Shown here in pieces: positions 34,778 to 44,907 of a stretch of DNA of 64,000 nucleotides (its first letter is position 1; each line of letters begins with the position of its first letter). Source of the stretch: Armatimonadota bacterium (GTDB lineage: Bacteria; Armatimonadota; JADLDR01). A program made the translations under genes and the position numbers. The stretch covers positions 105,589 through 169,588 of the forward strand of contig JADLDR010000118.1 in NCBI GenBank assembly GCA_020846535.1, in the 5' to 3' direction. The notes beneath the pieces are model-generated. The model was not told the origin of the DNA, ran no database searches, and was given only the letters and a program-made list of their open reading frames with translations.

Positions 34778-34871
34778 GGGTTAGAGTGTAGGGCGTAGGA
34801 AGATCGTGCGATGCGTGTTCCGCACCTTAGCGCCGTTCTCGTCCCTATACCCTATACCCTTCGGAGGTGGA

Positions 34872-35951
34872 ATGTCTTCTCTTTTACGCGAGCATGCGGA
34901 ACAGCAGTTTGCCGAGGAGATTCGGCAACTGGCCCAGGCGGACACGCGGCCCAGGCCGCCGAACTGGAAGCTCTCGCCCTGGGCGGTGGTGACCTATATC
35001 GTTGGCGGGGATATCGGGAACCGGTTCGAGGTGACGCCCAAATATATCGGCAGCCGCCGCCTGGTGGAGATCGCGGTGGCGACCCTGGCGACCGACCGCG
35101 CTCTGCTGCTCCTGGGTGTGCCCGGAACGGCCAAAACCTGGATGGCGGAACACCTGGCCGCCGCCATCTCGGGCGATTCCACCCTGCTGGTGCAGGGCAC
35201 GGCGGGCACGAGCGAGGAATCGGTGCGCTACGGGTGGGACTATGCCCGCCTTCTCTCCGAAGGGCCGTCTCTGAGGGCGCTCGTGCCCAGCCCGGTCATG
35301 CGGGCCATGCAGGCCGGGAAGATCGCCCGCGTGGAGGAGCTGACCCGGGTTCCCTCCGAGGTGCAGGACTCCTTTATCACCATCCTGTCGGAGAAGACGC
35401 TGCCCATCCCGGAACTCGGCTCCGAGGCGCAGGCCGTCAAGGGATTCAATGTCATCGCCACCGCCAATGACCGCGACCGGGGCGTGAACGAGCTTTCGAG
35501 CGCCCTCAAACGACGGTTCAACACGGTGGTGCTGCCCCTGCCGGACAGCATCGATCAGGAGGTAGATATCGTCCAGCGGCGCGTGGAAAGCATCGGTCAG
35601 GCCCTCGAGCTGCCTGCCGAACCGCCCGCCCTGGAGGAAATCCGCCGGGTAGTCACCATCTTCCGGGAGCTCCGTGCCGGCGTAACGACCGATGGCAAGA
35701 CGAAGATCAAGACCCCGAGCGGCACGCTCAGCACGGCGGAGGCCATCTCGGTGGTCAATAGCGGACGCGCCCTGGCCGCCCATTTCGGGGACGGAAGCCT
35801 GACGGCGGGAGACCTTGCCGCCAGCCTGATCGGCGCGGTGGTGAAAGACCCCGTACAGGATCGGATCGTCTGGCTCGAATACCTGGAGACCGTCGTCAAG
35901 GAGCGCCGCGACTGGCGGGACCTATACCGGGCATGCCGGGAGGTCATGTAG
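34872..35951 (+). CDS. MoxR-type AAA+ ATPase
   Basis: Walker A LLLLGVPGTAKTWMAEHLA; ARVEELTRVPSEVQDSFITILSEKTLP; FNVIATANDRDRGVNELSSALKRRFN. Confidence 0.95.
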   Translation: MSSLLREHAEQQFAEEIRQLAQADTRPRPPNWKLSPWAVVTYIVGGDIGNRFEVTPKYIGSRRLVEIAVATLATDRALLLLGVPGTAKTWMAEHLAAAISGDSTLLVQGTAGTSEESVRYGWDYARLLSEGPSLRALVPSPVMRAMQAGKIARVEELTRVPSEVQDSFITILSEKTLPIPELGSEAQAVKGFNVIATANDRDRGVNELSSALKRRFNTVVLPLPDSIDQEVDIVQRRVESIGQALELPAEPPALEEIRRVVTIFRELRAGVTTDGKTKIKTPSGTLSTAEAISVVNSGRALAAHFGDGSLTAGDLAASLIGAVVKDPVQDRIVWLEYLETVVKERRDWRDLYRACREVM

Positions 35952-38212
35952 TGGGGCTGAGCGTTTTCGGCATCCGGCACCACGGCCCGGGGAGCGCCCG
36001 GAGCCTCCGGGCCGCCCTGGAATCGCTGGAGCCTGAAATCCTCCTGGTGGAAGGCCCTGGAGATGCCCAGGATGCGCTGCCCCTCATCGCCCACCCGCAG
36101 ATGGAGCCGCCCGTCGCCCTCCTCCTCTACATACCCGATGAGCCGAACCGCTCGGTTTTCTATCCGTATACGGTCTTTTCCCCCGAATGGCAAGCCCTCA
36201 CCTATGCCTTCTCCCGGAACATCCCGGCCCGCCTGATCGATCTGCCCCAGGCCCATCAACTGGCCCTTCCCGCCCCGGAACCGCCTCCACCGCAGGAGAG
36301 CGGAGGAGAGGGGGCCACCGGCCCGGGAGCCGTCCTCGCCGCCGACCCTCGCCAGGACCCTCTGACCTGGATCGCCCACGCCGCAGGCTACAGCGACGGG
36401 GAGCGGTGGTGGGAGAACCAGGTGGAGCAGCGCCGGGAGAGCGCCGATCTCTTCCAGGCGGTTCTGGAATTGATGTTTTCGCTACGTCAGGCGGTGGAGG
36501 CCGAAAGCACCCTGCCCCCCGACCCTGCGGAGGCGCTTCGGGAAGCTCATATGCGCCAATCCATCCGGGCCGCGCAGGAAGACGGCTTCAAAACCGTTGC
36601 GGTGGTCTGCGGGGCCTGGCATGCCCCTGTCCTGGCGCGGCTCCCCTCGCCCAAAGAGGACGCCGCCCTCCTGAAAGGGCTGCCGAAGGTGAAGGTAGCC
36701 GCTACCTGGGTTCCCTGGACGTACGGGCGACTGACACGCGAGAGCGGCTATGGGGCGGGGATCGATGCCCCGGGATGGTATCATCACCTCTGGTCGGCCC
36801 GGCAGCGTGTGGCCGTCGGCTGGATGGCGAAGGCGTCCCGCCTCCTGCGGGATGAGGATTTGCCCGGGTCCCCGGCCCATGTCATCGAGGCCGTCCGCCT
36901 GGCGGAGGCCCTTGCCGCCATGCGCGACCGGCCCTTGCCCGGTTTGCCCGAACTGACCGAGGCCGTCCGGACCGTCTTCTGCTCCGGCAGCGATGCGCCC
37001 ATACGCCTGATCCACGACCGGCTGATCATCGGAGATCGGATCGGCAAAGTGCCGGAGGAAACCCCGATGCTTCCCTTGCAGCGCGACGTCGAGCGGGAGC
37101 AGAAGCGCCTGCGCCTTCCCCCCGAAGCCCTGGCCCGGGACATCGATCTCGACCTGCGGAAGCCGGGCAACCTGGAGCGGAGCTACCTTCTCCACCGCCT
37201 GAACCTTCTGGGCATCCCCTGGGGCGCGCCCACCGAAACCTACGGTGCGAAGGGAACCTTTCACGAACTCTGGCGACTCCAGTGGACTCCGGAAATGGCG
37301 GTTTCTCTCATCGAGGCCAGCGTTTGGGGCAATACCGTCCGGGAGGCCGCGACTGCGCGGGCGCAGCATCTCGCCGATGGCGTTGCCGAACTGGCTCCCC
37401 TGACGGCATTGACGCAGAGCGTTCTCTGGGCCGACCTGCCCGAAGCCCTCGGCCCGCTGATGGCCCGGCTTCAGAGCCTTGCCGCCGTCACCAGCGACAT
37501 CCCCGCCCTGATGGAATCGCTGCCCGGCTTCGCGCAAATCCTGCGCTACGGCAATGTCCGCCAGACCGATACCGGCATGGTGGCCCATGTGGTGGACGGC
37601 ATCGTGGCCCGCATCGCCATCGGCCTCCCCGCCGCCTGCGCTTCCCTCAACGATGAGGCCGCGGAAGCCATGTTCGCCCGGCTGATAGGCGTCCACCAGG
37701 CGATCCACCTCCTCCAGAACGAAGGCCACCTGGCCGTCTGGAACCGGGCTCTCGAATCGCTGGCCGACATGCCGCGCCTCCATGCCCTCCTGGCGGGGCG
37801 CTGCTGCCGCCTCCTGCTGGAATATAACGTCTGGTCGGCGGAGGAAACGGCCCGGCGGATGGGCCTCGCGCTTTCCCTCACCGTCGATCCTGCGATGGCC
37901 GCCGCCTGGGTGGAAGGCTTCCTGCGCGGATCGGGCCTTCTCTTGCATAACGATATCCTCTGGAATATCCTGGACGGCTGGGTATCCTCCCTGCCCGGCG
38001 AGGCTTTCAACCGACTGCTGCCGCTCCTGCGACGCACATTCGCCACCTTCCCCGCCCCGGAGCGCCGCCAGATGGGGGAGCGTGCCAAGAAAGGGCCTGA
38101 ACGCGGGGGAGGACTCACGGGCGGGGCCGGAGAGGTGGATACCGAGCGAGCCGATCAGGTACTGCCCCTGATCGCCCGGCTGCTGGGGGTGGAAATGGAG
38201 CCTCAAAAATGA
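35933..38212 (+). CDS. DUF5682 family protein
   Basis: VGLSVFGIRHHGPGSARSLRAALESLEPEILLVEGPGDAQDALPLIAHPQMEPPVALLLY...VVCGAWHAPVL; between MoxR ATPase and VWA gene; true start may be GTG at 35951. Confidence 0.85.
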   Translation: MPGGHVVGLSVFGIRHHGPGSARSLRAALESLEPEILLVEGPGDAQDALPLIAHPQMEPPVALLLYIPDEPNRSVFYPYTVFSPEWQALTYAFSRNIPARLIDLPQAHQLALPAPEPPPPQESGGEGATGPGAVLAADPRQDPLTWIAHAAGYSDGERWWENQVEQRRESADLFQAVLELMFSLRQAVEAESTLPPDPAEALREAHMRQSIRAAQEDGFKTVAVVCGAWHAPVLARLPSPKEDAALLKGLPKVKVAATWVPWTYGRLTRESGYGAGIDAPGWYHHLWSARQRVAVGWMAKASRLLRDEDLPGSPAHVIEAVRLAEALAAMRDRPLPGLPELTEAVRTVFCSGSDAPIRLIHDRLIIGDRIGKVPEETPMLPLQRDVEREQKRLRLPPEALARDIDLDLRKPGNLERSYLLHRLNLLGIPWGAPTETYGAKGTFHELWRLQWTPEMAVSLIEASVWGNTVREAATARAQHLADGVAELAPLTALTQSVLWADLPEALGPLMARLQSLAAVTSDIPALMESLPGFAQILRYGNVRQTDTGMVAHVVDGIVARIAIGLPAACASLNDEAAEAMFARLIGVHQAIHLLQNEGHLAVWNRALESLADMPRLHALLAGRCCRLLLEYNVWSAEETARRMGLALSLTVDPAMAAAWVEGFLRGSGLLLHNDILWNILDGWVSSLPGEAFNRLLPLLRRTFATFPAPERRQMGERAKKGPERGGGLTGGAGEVDTERADQVLPLIARLLGVEMEPQK

Positions 38213-39387
38213 ACCAGGAAACCCGTTCCGCGCCGCAGGACGAACGCCTCCGGCGCTGGCGATTGATTCTGGGGGGCGGGGAGACGGATGGGACCGGATG
38301 CGCCCTGTCCGGAGCGGATATCGGCATCGACCGCACCCTCCAGGCGCTCTACGACTCCGACCGGTCCGGCGGGCTGGGGAGTTCCTCTCCCAATGTGGCC
38401 CGATGGCTGGGCGATATCCGCGCCTACTTTCCCACCTCTGTGGTCAGGGTGATGCAGCAGGACGCCCTGGACCGGCTGGGCCTGCGTCAGATGCTTCTGG
38501 AGCCGGAGATGCTGGAGGCCGTGGAGCCGGATGTCCACCTGGTCGCCACCCTCCTTTCGCTCGGACAGATCATGCCGGAAAAGGTCAGGGAAACGGCTCG
38601 GGCGGTGGTGCAGCGCGTGGTGGAGGAGTTGGAGAAGAAGCTGGCGAACCCGCTCCGGCAGGCCGTGACCGGCAGCCTGAACCGCTCGATACGCACCCGC
38701 CGCCCGCGCCACCGGGATATCGACTGGATGCGGACCATCCGGGCCAACCTGAGGCACTACCAGCCCGATCTCAGAACCGTCATCCCGGAAACCCTGATCG
38801 GCTACGGGCGCAGGCAGGGGGCCGTGCAGAGGGAGATCATCCTGTGCGTGGACCAGAGCGGTTCGATGGCGACTTCGGTCGTCTATTCCGGGGTCTTCGC
38901 TGCGGTGATGGCCTCGATCCGGTCGGTCAAAACCTCTCTGGTCGTCTTCGACACCTCGGTCGTAGACCTGACCCCGATGCTCCAGGACCCGGTGGACGTA
39001 CTCTTCGGAACGCAGTTGGGGGGCGGGACCGATATCAACCGGGCGGTCGCCTATTGCCAGGGGCTGGTGCGCGTCCCGCAGGATACGATCCTGATCCTCA
39101 TCAGCGACCTCTATGAAGGCGGAAACGCCGCGGAAATGTTCAAGCGGATGGCCTCTCTGATCGGCTCCGGCGTGCAGGTCATCTGCCTCCTCGCCCTCGA
39201 CGACCGCGGCGCGCCCGGCTTCGATGGCCGCGCAGCCCACACGCTCGCCGGCCTGGGAGCGCCCTCCTTCGCCTGCACGCCCGACCTCTTCCCCGACCTG
39301 ATGGCTGCCGCCATCAAGCGCCAGGATATCGCCGCCTGGGCCGCCGCAAACGATATCGTGATTGCACGGGGAGAAGGGGCGGAATGA
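38209..39387 (+). CDS. VWA (von Willebrand factor A) domain protein
   Basis: MIDAS ILCVDQSGSM; LGGGTDINRAVAYCQ; ILISDLYEGG; ATGA overlap with DUF5682 gene. Confidence 0.95.
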   Translation: MNQETRSAPQDERLRRWRLILGGGETDGTGCALSGADIGIDRTLQALYDSDRSGGLGSSSPNVARWLGDIRAYFPTSVVRVMQQDALDRLGLRQMLLEPEMLEAVEPDVHLVATLLSLGQIMPEKVRETARAVVQRVVEELEKKLANPLRQAVTGSLNRSIRTRRPRHRDIDWMRTIRANLRHYQPDLRTVIPETLIGYGRRQGAVQREIILCVDQSGSMATSVVYSGVFAAVMASIRSVKTSLVVFDTSVVDLTPMLQDPVDVLFGTQLGGGTDINRAVAYCQGLVRVPQDTILILISDLYEGGNAAEMFKRMASLIGSGVQVICLLALDDRGAPGFDGRAAHTLAGLGAPSFACTPDLFPDLMAAAIKRQDIAAWAAANDIVIARGEGAE

Positions 39388-39388
39388 C

Positions 39389-39420
39389 AAACTCGGGCCA
39401 GCATCCGGCCCGAGTTTTTT
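39389..39420 (+). terminator. Rho-independent terminator of the MoxR-DUF5682-VWA operon
   Basis: aaactcgggcc-agcatcc-ggcccgagttttttt, classic stem plus U-tract. Confidence 0.92.
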
Positions 39421-39428
39421 CATACGCT

Positions 39429-39854
39429 TCAGGAGGCGTTTTTGACGACCTTCATATCGCTGATGTAAATCCCCTGAAGGCCCCCCTGGCGGACGATATG
39501 GCCTTTCACGCTCACCGTATCGGCCATATGCTCGATCAGTTGATCTTTGGAAGCCTGGTGCTTTTCGCTGCCGAATGTTATATAGACATGGCTTTTGCCA
39601 TCCACGATCCCGATGGGGTTTCCGGCCTTCGCGCAGGCGATCCCGCAATCCTTGTGGCCTGCCCCCCGGGCTTTATGATCCATATAGCACCAGAGATCCA
39701 CCACTTCCCCTGTCACTGTCGCCTCTTTCGGTGCTTTCGCGGCCCTGGCAGCCTTCGGAGCGCCTTTGGCAGCCCATCCCACCACCGAGAAAACCACCGC
39801 CGCGGCCAGAGCGATTGCCAGCATGACAGCCAGCTTATTCCAGCGATTGCTCAT
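39429..39854 (-). CDS. Small secreted/membrane-anchored protein of unknown function
   Basis: Signal/TM N-terminus then VTGEVVDLWCYMDHKARGAGHKDCGIACAKAGNPIGIVDGKSHVYITFG. Confidence 0.8.
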   Translation of the reverse strand: MSNRWNKLAVMLAIALAAAVVFSVVGWAAKGAPKAARAAKAPKEATVTGEVVDLWCYMDHKARGAGHKDCGIACAKAGNPIGIVDGKSHVYITFGSEKHQASKDQLIEHMADTVSVKGHIVRQGGLQGIYISDMKVVKNAS

Positions 39855-39986
39855 TTCGAACCTCCTCACCAACGTTTTCAGGAAACGCTTTGAATGTGGT
39901 TTTTTATAATAATCGTATAAATCCGCTGGAATGGTTCCCGTCACGGCGAGGATGGGGTAATTTTTGGCCCGGGATGCCTTACTGCT

Positions 39987-42738: not shown

Positions 42739-44844
42739 CTACTCCACCACCAGCCAGGTGATTTCTTTCGGCCCCAGGCGCACCGGCGCTTGGATATGGT
42801 ATTCACGGTCTAAAATGTACTCCTTTATCCTTCCTCCATCGAAGCGCACGCTCGCCCTGTCGGTCAGGCCCGTGTAGTAGAGGGGGAGCCGGATAGTTTG
42901 CTTGAGTTCCCGGTCGGTGGGATTGTAGAACATCGCCAGGCCGCGCTCTTTCAGCCGCGAGTTGACGTGCAGGACGCAGTCGATGGATCTCCCGTCCGGG
43001 CGGCGGACATGGATGATATCCGAGTCCAGGATCAGGCGGTGTTTCTTATAAAAACTCACCCATTTTTTCACGACCGCTCTGGTTTCCTTCGTGTCGAAGA
43101 GCCGCGGGCCGCGGTAGCATGCCTGCACGCCGCTGCCGAAATTCTGGGCCAGGTGCCACTCGTATTCCTTCAGATGGGCGGAGAGCGGCTCGAAGGTGGC
43201 GGCCTCTCCGCCCCCGTGGTATTCCACCAGCGGCACGAACATCCACCCCATGCTCGGCGCCTTCTCGAAGGTGCCGTCATAGATGTTCTGTCGGGCGATC
43301 AGGATTTGCCGCCAGCGAGGCAGGCTGAAATTGTCCTCCCGATAGCCCATCCCGCACTTGTTGCTGCCGTTCAGGTAATAGGAGTCGGGCGAGTTGATAT
43401 AGATACCGCGCTTCCGGCATTCATGATAGAAATTCACACATGCTTGCCACTGGCGAAGCTGGGAGTCCTTCAATCCCCGGTGATGCTTGTACTCGGTGGA
43501 GGCGCAGACATCGCCGTGGAAGGGGCCGTCGGTCTCGATCACATCCATGCCGGTCTTATCCATGAAGTCGAGGACGCGGCGAAAGTAGCTGTCGGCCCAT
43601 TCGCTCGCAAGGCATGCGCTCTGCCCGAACTTGCTCCCCGGCTGGCCTGTTTCCGGCGAGATGCAGTTGTTCTCCGGCCCGGCATCCCGTGAGGCGCACA
43701 TCAGGGTATAGCCCCCGATCTCGATCCCTTTCCGGTGGGCGTAATCCACGTCCGCCTTGAAGCGGACGATGCAGTCCGGATCCTCGCTTTCGATATCGAA
43801 CCCGCTCCAGAAGGTCAGGATAACCATGTCGAAGCCCACCTCGGCGCACTGATCGACCGCCCGCCTCACCGACACCGAATCGGAACTCCGCACATGCATC
43901 AGGATCGGATTTTCGGTGACCTGCGGGGCGAGCGCCCGCACCATCCGCCGCCGGCCCAGCCCCCTGCGCTCGCGGTCGTCACTGTCGTGGAGAAGCTCGA
44001 AGGTGCGGAAAGAATCGAACCGCTCGCCCGGCCTCAGAGCGACTCCCGGCCCGAGCGGGTCTTTGCTGGTCATCAAAAGGGGCATCCGGTAGAGGAAATC
44101 GATCTGGGTCTTGTAGTCTGGATCCGGTCCCCAGTGGGTGGTGTCCATCCCGTCGAACACATAATCGCTCTCGACATGAAGCCTCTGCTTCTCCTGCTCC
44201 GTGACCGCCAAGATCTCCCCCACGACCGATTCCAGCAGGATTTCTCTGCCGCTCCTGTTTTCGATAGAGAGCCATTTCGAGAGGACCGGCATCCCTTCGT
44301 ACATTTCGTAATGGACGGATACCGCAAGGCCGTCATAGAGGGGCAGCCAGCTCTCCGGGGGCCGAAACCGGAAGGTCAGGGACAGACCGGCGGGAGGCCA
44401 AGGGCGCTTTTCGGAACGGCGCTTCGGCTTCCAGGGATAGCGGGCGGCAGGCTCACCTATCGTACAGCCGGCGTATTGAAACGCTTCCGGGCTGGAAGTC
44501 ATCTTTCCGATCCAAGCCGGGTCGAGATAGGCGTAATCGGGCTGCCCTTTTAGCCCGCCCACCTCCGCCCGCCTGCCATCGATCACCAGAACCGCCTCCG
44601 GCTTCACGCCCCGCAAGATGCCGACTCCCGCGGTCAGGTTCCGATAATCGATGGTCGCTAGATTGGGCGCTGTGCGGAACGTCCGGCTGATCAGCCCGTT
44701 GGAGAGGGCGACCTCCCCATCCCTTTCCTCGGCCCGGACAGCCTTCTTGACGGAAGCCACCAGCCAGTCCGGGTTTTCCCCGGCGGCGACGAGCGACGAG
44801 AGCAAGCATAAGATAATGACAATAACTATGATAAGAATTAACAT
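42739..44844 (-). CDS. Secreted alpha-galactosidase-like TIM-barrel glycosidase
   Basis: Signal/TM start MLILIIVIVIILCLLSSLVAAGE; FDMVILTFWSGFDIE, KTGMDVIETDGPFHGDVCAS. Confidence 0.65.
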   Translation of the reverse strand: MLILIIVIVIILCLLSSLVAAGENPDWLVASVKKAVRAEERDGEVALSNGLISRTFRTAPNLATIDYRNLTAGVGILRGVKPEAVLVIDGRRAEVGGLKGQPDYAYLDPAWIGKMTSSPEAFQYAGCTIGEPAARYPWKPKRRSEKRPWPPAGLSLTFRFRPPESWLPLYDGLAVSVHYEMYEGMPVLSKWLSIENRSGREILLESVVGEILAVTEQEKQRLHVESDYVFDGMDTTHWGPDPDYKTQIDFLYRMPLLMTSKDPLGPGVALRPGERFDSFRTFELLHDSDDRERRGLGRRRMVRALAPQVTENPILMHVRSSDSVSVRRAVDQCAEVGFDMVILTFWSGFDIESEDPDCIVRFKADVDYAHRKGIEIGGYTLMCASRDAGPENNCISPETGQPGSKFGQSACLASEWADSYFRRVLDFMDKTGMDVIETDGPFHGDVCASTEYKHHRGLKDSQLRQWQACVNFYHECRKRGIYINSPDSYYLNGSNKCGMGYREDNFSLPRWRQILIARQNIYDGTFEKAPSMGWMFVPLVEYHGGGEAATFEPLSAHLKEYEWHLAQNFGSGVQACYRGPRLFDTKETRAVVKKWVSFYKKHRLILDSDIIHVRRPDGRSIDCVLHVNSRLKERGLAMFYNPTDRELKQTIRLPLYYTGLTDRASVRFDGGRIKEYILDREYHIQAPVRLGPKEITWLVVE

Positions 44845-44907
44845 GATGGCTCCTTGCAACTACCTGCCCCAGTCTTACAAGATCACCCGGTTACGCAGGG
44901 TTATGGT

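Follow-up and report, generated by a model that had tools for sequence, protein, structure and literature searches.

What might a bacterium do with three overlapping genes encoding a MoxR AAA+ ATPase, a protein of the DUF5682 family and a VWA protein, and are these three genes the whole of the system? The question is raised by a locus of an Armatimonadota bacterium that lies in a stretch of 64,000 nucleotides, hereafter the window. DUF5682 is not named in the literature that we searched, which describes no function for it, and a preliminary description, made from the letters of the window, had taken the locus for a minimal module built around a possible enzyme. The features on which our analysis rests are collected in Table 1.

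Table 1. Features of the MoxR-DUF5682-VWA operon, in positions of the window
Feature	Position	Strand	Basis
Shine-Dalgarno-like GGAGG ahead of the MoxR ATG	34862..34871	+	sequence
MoxR AAA+ ATPase, YehL subfamily, 359 aa	34872..35951	+	Pfam AAA_5, E=2e-37
DUF5682 protein, alpha/beta domain, predicted to be TraB/Ere-like, and after it a region made up largely of helices	35951..38212	+	PF18934
DUF5682 N-terminal domain, predicted TraB/TIKI/Ere-like, residues 1-300, with His11, Glu34, Arg197 and His224	35951..36850	+	model and conservation
DUF5682 C-terminal helical array, about residues 447-714	37289..38092	+	DSSP on the model
VWA (CoxE-like) protein, 392 aa	38209..39387	+	PF05762 VWA_CoxE, E=3e-52
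Intrinsic terminator between convergent genes	39389..39420	+	RNA fold and sequence

The three overlapping genes and the strong terminator that closes them lie where they had first been described. The stop codon of the MoxR gene (TAG, 35949-35951) overlaps a GTG at 35951, forming TAGTG, with a GGGAGG about 7 bases upstream of the GTG, and an ATGA at 38209-38212 joins the stop of DUF5682 to the start of the VWA gene. DUF5682 probably starts at this GTG, which gives 753 aa, and not at an ATG at 35933, which would give 759 aa: the conserved N-terminus of the family begins at the GTG, the codon overlaps the MoxR stop, and the GGGAGG stands in front of it. The resulting protein matches PF18934 with 913 bits, covering all 727 positions of the profile. 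The terminator has an 11-bp stem (AAACTCGGGCC/GGCCCGAGTTT) followed by a run of T, with a folding energy of -22.3 kcal/mol (z = -3.5 against shuffled sequences); a simple terminator scan did not list this hairpin. Sitting between convergent genes, it may serve both strands.

Some features of the surroundings deserve mention in their own right. The terminator region is common to the operon and the convergent gene (39432-39944, minus strand), which encodes a 171-aa protein with no Pfam match. A direct repeat, CCCTATACCCTATACCC (34843-34859), stands in the short stretch that precedes the MoxR gene, with TAGGG-like runs some 60 bases before it and only a copy with three mismatches elsewhere in the window. 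Another gene on the minus strand (42742-44859), adjoining cellulase-like and URO-D-like genes, encodes a 706-aa protein with no Pfam match at E 0.001.

As judged from their sequences, the MoxR and VWA proteins retain nearly all of their functional motifs. In MoxR these are Walker A (GVPGTAKT), a Walker B-like RVEELTR, sensor 1 (IATAN) and the Arg finger (RRF); Walker A and RRF are intact, and in Walker B a Glu-Glu pair (residues 155-156 of the window's protein) replaces Asp-Glu, as it does in all 15 aligned members of the YehL type, YehL included. The MIDAS of the VWA protein is complete in the alignment (DxSxS-T-D: D215-x-S217-x-S219, T274 and D300). Together with DUF5682, they are homologues of yehL, yehM and yehP of Escherichia coli K-12: MoxR is 41% identical to YehL over 360 aa (E=4e-80), with no significant match to RavA (E=0.5), and the VWA protein is 37% identical to YehP. 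YehL gives its name to a MoxR subfamily (PMC3893208, PMC11432383).

To place the locus among its relatives we scanned one genome per species, which yielded more than 560 relatives of DUF5682 distributed over many phyla, and retained the 80 closest loci, which tilts the survey towards loci of the same subtype as the window's. The neighbours were marked by tblastn for five families and counted only over loci with enough flanking sequence. Linkage of DUF5682 to MoxR and VWA, which had been named beforehand as the test of the initial reading, holds: among these best 80 of more than 560 relatives, MoxR is directly upstream in 63/72 loci and VWA directly downstream in 57/67, DUF5691 lies upstream in 59/66 and a SWIM zinc-finger gene in 49/56, and the full order SWIM-DUF5691-MoxR-DUF5682-VWA is found in 45/51. 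Outside the five genes, no extra neighbour recurs in over 7 loci; the recurrences seen looked like the product of chance or shared lineage. In two otherwise canonical operons, a gene is inserted between MoxR and DUF5682, of 784 aa in Variovorax (L088:3670-8001) and of 241 aa in a Verrucomicrobiaceae MAG (L043:4079-4801).

The window shows three of these five genes, and the preliminary description concluded that the module is minimal, SWIM and DUF5691 being absent. They are indeed absent at the locus, but both are present in the same genome, side by side on another contig (C41), with scores of 453 bits for DUF5691 and 628 bits, against the family profile, for SWIM. There they form a two-gene operon (C41 40597-43435; L107:7580-10520, minus strand) that has neither MoxR nor VWA beside it; a gene resembling glycoside hydrolase family 42 lies 20 bases downstream of the pair. 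The operon is therefore split, not minimal. Since the genome is metagenome-assembled, in 253 contigs and with an estimated contamination of 8.4%, C41 might be a contaminant, in which case the organism would have only the three-gene module and the evidence from gene order would mislead. We judged the membership of the contig by composition and copy number, and find such contamination very improbable: the GC content of C41 is that of the window (about 0.63), of 55 loci it is the closest to the window in tetranucleotide signature (r=0.90, against 0.82-0.84 between parts of the window itself), and each of the five genes occurs in exactly one copy in the genome. Further evidence against it comes from the rest of the phylum, where every genome whose DUF5691 match exceeds the cut-off has DUF5682 too.

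Indeed, across 201 genomes of the phylum, DUF5682 is found in 19 and above-cut-off DUF5691 in 17, and 17/17 of the latter have both (P=9e-23, phylogeny being ignored in this estimate). Wherever else in the phylum DUF5691 is clearly matched, it shares a contig with DUF5682 and is no more than a few kb away, except for pieces cut by contig ends. We also searched the whole genomes of nine other organisms in which DUF5682 stands alone or with an incomplete set. In these dispersed or partial-locus genomes a YehL-type MoxR was recovered in 9/9, and DUF5691, VWA and SWIM in 8/9 each; all five genes are present in 7/9, and the two exceptions may be incomplete assemblies. That the set is kept whole even where the operon has broken up says more for a common function than adjacency alone would. 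The five genes, in short, travel together.

They do so in more than one arrangement. In E. coli K-12 the yehL-yehM-yehP-yehQ operon has the same order of MoxR, DUF5682 and VWA and also includes a SWIM gene; it differs from the SWIM-DUF5691-MoxR-DUF5682-VWA order of the window's lineage, split here, in that SWIM (YehQ) is downstream and DUF5691 is missing. More distant relatives within the DUF5682 family occur in the window's own phylum: locus L155 in genome G006 and L156 in G068 carry a divergent DUF5682 in a layout like that of E. coli, SWIM being downstream. At least two layouts therefore exist, and G006 carries both subtypes. In the open literature that we searched we found no function for yehLMPQ beyond its mention in lists of subfamilies. 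A natural disruption is on record in one E. coli strain, in which yehM is broken by an insertion of the IS5 family (NZ_CP137737.1, 1867916-1871259).

What kind of protein, then, is DUF5682? An AlphaFold2 model of the full protein, with 62 aligned sequences as input (pLDDT 91.1, pTM 0.87), shows an alpha/beta N-terminal part followed by a helical array. A Foldseek search of the PDB with the full-length model returned only helical-repeat noise; the N-terminal 300 residues were therefore modelled (pLDDT 88.8, pTM 0.88) and searched alone. EreC (6xcq), 2qgm, 3b55 and 2rad then appear at ranks 2, 4, 11 and 13 (E 0.16-1.1), and they account for the three sequences of the erythromycin-esterase family, the full number picked up in the PDB by the Ere profile; four such chains among the top 13 have a probability of about 4e-17, assuming seven in the library. 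Ranks 1, 3 and 9 are chains of the Tetrahymena complex IV, which has a TraB-family subunit (PMC10060162), and we infer that they are this subunit. The PDB matches are individually weak (E 0.02 to 1.1), and the only structure match significant by itself comes from a library of viral structures, where a TraB family protein ranks first (E=1.4e-4, probability 1.00). At the level of sequence, a DUF5682 profile found nothing in the PDB, and hhalign of the N-terminal domain against an Ere alignment and against YbaP stayed below significance (E 0.09 and 0.29), with alignments that pair the RExxM and late-His motifs. The Pfam TraB family itself is nearly absent from the phylum. Taken together, the matches of the confidently modelled N-terminal domain in two structure libraries support a TraB/TIKI/Ere-type alpha/beta fold for it, in line with the guess of a TraB/ChaN/erythromycin-esterase fold in the preliminary description.

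The motifs IRHHGPGSA, EGPGDA and CGAWHAP, taken early to suggest an enzyme, are present in DUF5682 and strongly conserved, and the protein has a conserved His/Glu/Arg/His set. We counted conservation in 78 sequences that include YehM and relatives down to about 25% identity: E34, R197 and H224 are kept in 78/78 and H11 in 77/78. In the model, the first His follows strand 1, the Glu is on strand 2, the Arg is in a helix (RExxM) and the second His comes after a late strand. In the TIKI-fold endopeptidase a His/Glu pair, a late His and a basic residue are essential (PMC6254334), and by analogy the order and secondary-structure setting of the DUF5682 residues match that catalytic His/Glu and basic residue. 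However, 78/78 sequences carry Ile or Val at position 8, which in Ere proteins is the first Glu of GExxH, so that DUF5682 could be inactive; YbaP, a TraB protein, carries GSIH and likewise lacks this Glu. From its sequence, activity as a hydrolase is plausible but not certain. DUF5682 would thus resemble the TraB/TIKI/Ere/ChaN superfamily in predicted fold and in the placement of these four residues, and it differs in its long helical C-terminal region, in its tie to a MoxR-VWA pair and in the Ile or Val that stands for the first Glu.

How could such a protein work with its neighbours? The closest analogies are NorQ/NorD, CbbQ/CbbO and RavA/ViaA, in which a MoxR ring and a VWA adapter with a MIDAS are likewise encoded in one operon; our module differs in its MoxR, which is of another subfamily, and in having a putative hydrolase as the partner instead of a known metalloenzyme. 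In NorQ/NorD the MIDAS is required for the activity of the client and not for binding to the ATPase, and ATP hydrolysis is needed for the maturation of the client (PMC9976466). By analogy, the MoxR ring would act together with the VWA protein and spend ATP hydrolysis on remodelling DUF5682 or on feeding it a substrate, while the MIDAS would hold an acidic patch of DUF5682 or of its substrate, as has been proposed for NorD. Remodelling could open the TraB-like active site to a protein or peptide substrate, or mature the enzyme, and the zinc-finger SWIM protein and DUF5691 might be a scaffold or receptors for substrates. We give an even chance to this general reading, in which the window holds the MoxR-DUF5682-VWA half of a split five-protein module and a MoxR/VWA chaperone remodels or gates a TraB/TIKI-like putative hydrolase with the assistance of SWIM and DUF5691. 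What speaks against it are the weak PDB matches, the lack of a significant profile alignment with Ere or YbaP, the missing first Glu and the Glu that takes the place of Asp in the Walker B of MoxR. A more specific form would be a cytosolic protease or hydrolase of the TIKI/TraB type that a MoxR-VWA AAA+ machine loads or gates, SWIM and DUF5691 being the receptors for its substrates. This form is tentative, and we would call it possible rather than probable.

It could also be that nothing is cleaved at all. MoxR and VWA would then form a machine for cofactor insertion or assembly, whose client, be it DUF5682 or an outside enzyme, is built, and DUF5682 might be an inactive scaffold with a TraB fold. 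In those characterised MoxR-VWA pairs whose clients are known, such as NorQD and RavA-ViaA, the client is indeed matured or modulated, the missing first Glu of GExxH fits an inactive protein, and ChaN, a TIKI-fold protein, binds haem. Yet the invariance of Glu34, Arg197 and His224, and near invariance of His11, over such distant sequences exceeds what a pure scaffold would need, and the neighbour search of the loci found no recurrent metalloenzyme neighbour, so that we consider this possibility somewhat unlikely.

The other alternative starts from the context of biological conflict that the preliminary description had mentioned: the operon might be an anti-phage system of the MoxR-vWA ternary type in which DUF5682 is a toxic effector restrained by the chaperone. 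Ternary conflict systems of MoxR, vWA and a third component do exist, and Kaur et al. (PMC7159879) stress three of their features, namely variable effectors, a rapid evolution and the presence of paralogous copies. The window's MoxR has a weak, below cut-off match to the bpMoxR model, and the patchy presence of DUF5682 in the phylum (the 19 of 201 genomes given above) would suit such a role. Against it, the module has no VMAP, iSTAND, FtsH or beta-propeller third component, DUF5682 being the only candidate; the same genes recur without fused domains or swapped effectors, and none of 65 VWA relatives has a C-terminal effector domain, the tail after the match having a median of 2 aa and a maximum of 85. 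Across phyla, MoxR keeps an identity of about 73% to the window's copy, which is the opposite of fast evolution, and there is one set per genome examined, G006 excepted. PADLOC reports no system beyond a weak similarity of the ATPase motifs to IetA, IMG/VR yielded no relative, and yehM is present in 5311/5426 complete E. coli genomes (98%), almost always in the chromosome. A role in conflict is not supported, and we regard phage defence as quite improbable; the role of the module is probably in cellular maintenance or the handling of stress. Mobile elements were likewise rejected as its main habitat, since besides the result for IMG/VR a DUF5682 relative occurs in only 36/72,556 plasmid records and one phage record gives a distant match. 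The latter, an unannotated 14-kb Bacteriophage sp. record from human faeces (MT835988.1, 10644-12755), encodes a DUF5682 protein with 28.6% identity at 94% coverage and may be bacterial DNA deposited under a phage label.

The five-gene module is widespread and already known as genes, albeit uncharacterised, and the copy in the window is another member of it. The fold assignment, the four named residues and the retention of the genes when they are scattered turn an anonymous operon into a testable hypothesis of a hydrolase coupled to an AAA+ machine, which can be tried in E. coli K-12, a species in which 98% of the complete genomes carry yehM. If the reading of a gated hydrolase is true, nearly all E. 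coli would carry, in YehLMPQ, an ATP-dependent hydrolase system that had so far gone unrecognised.
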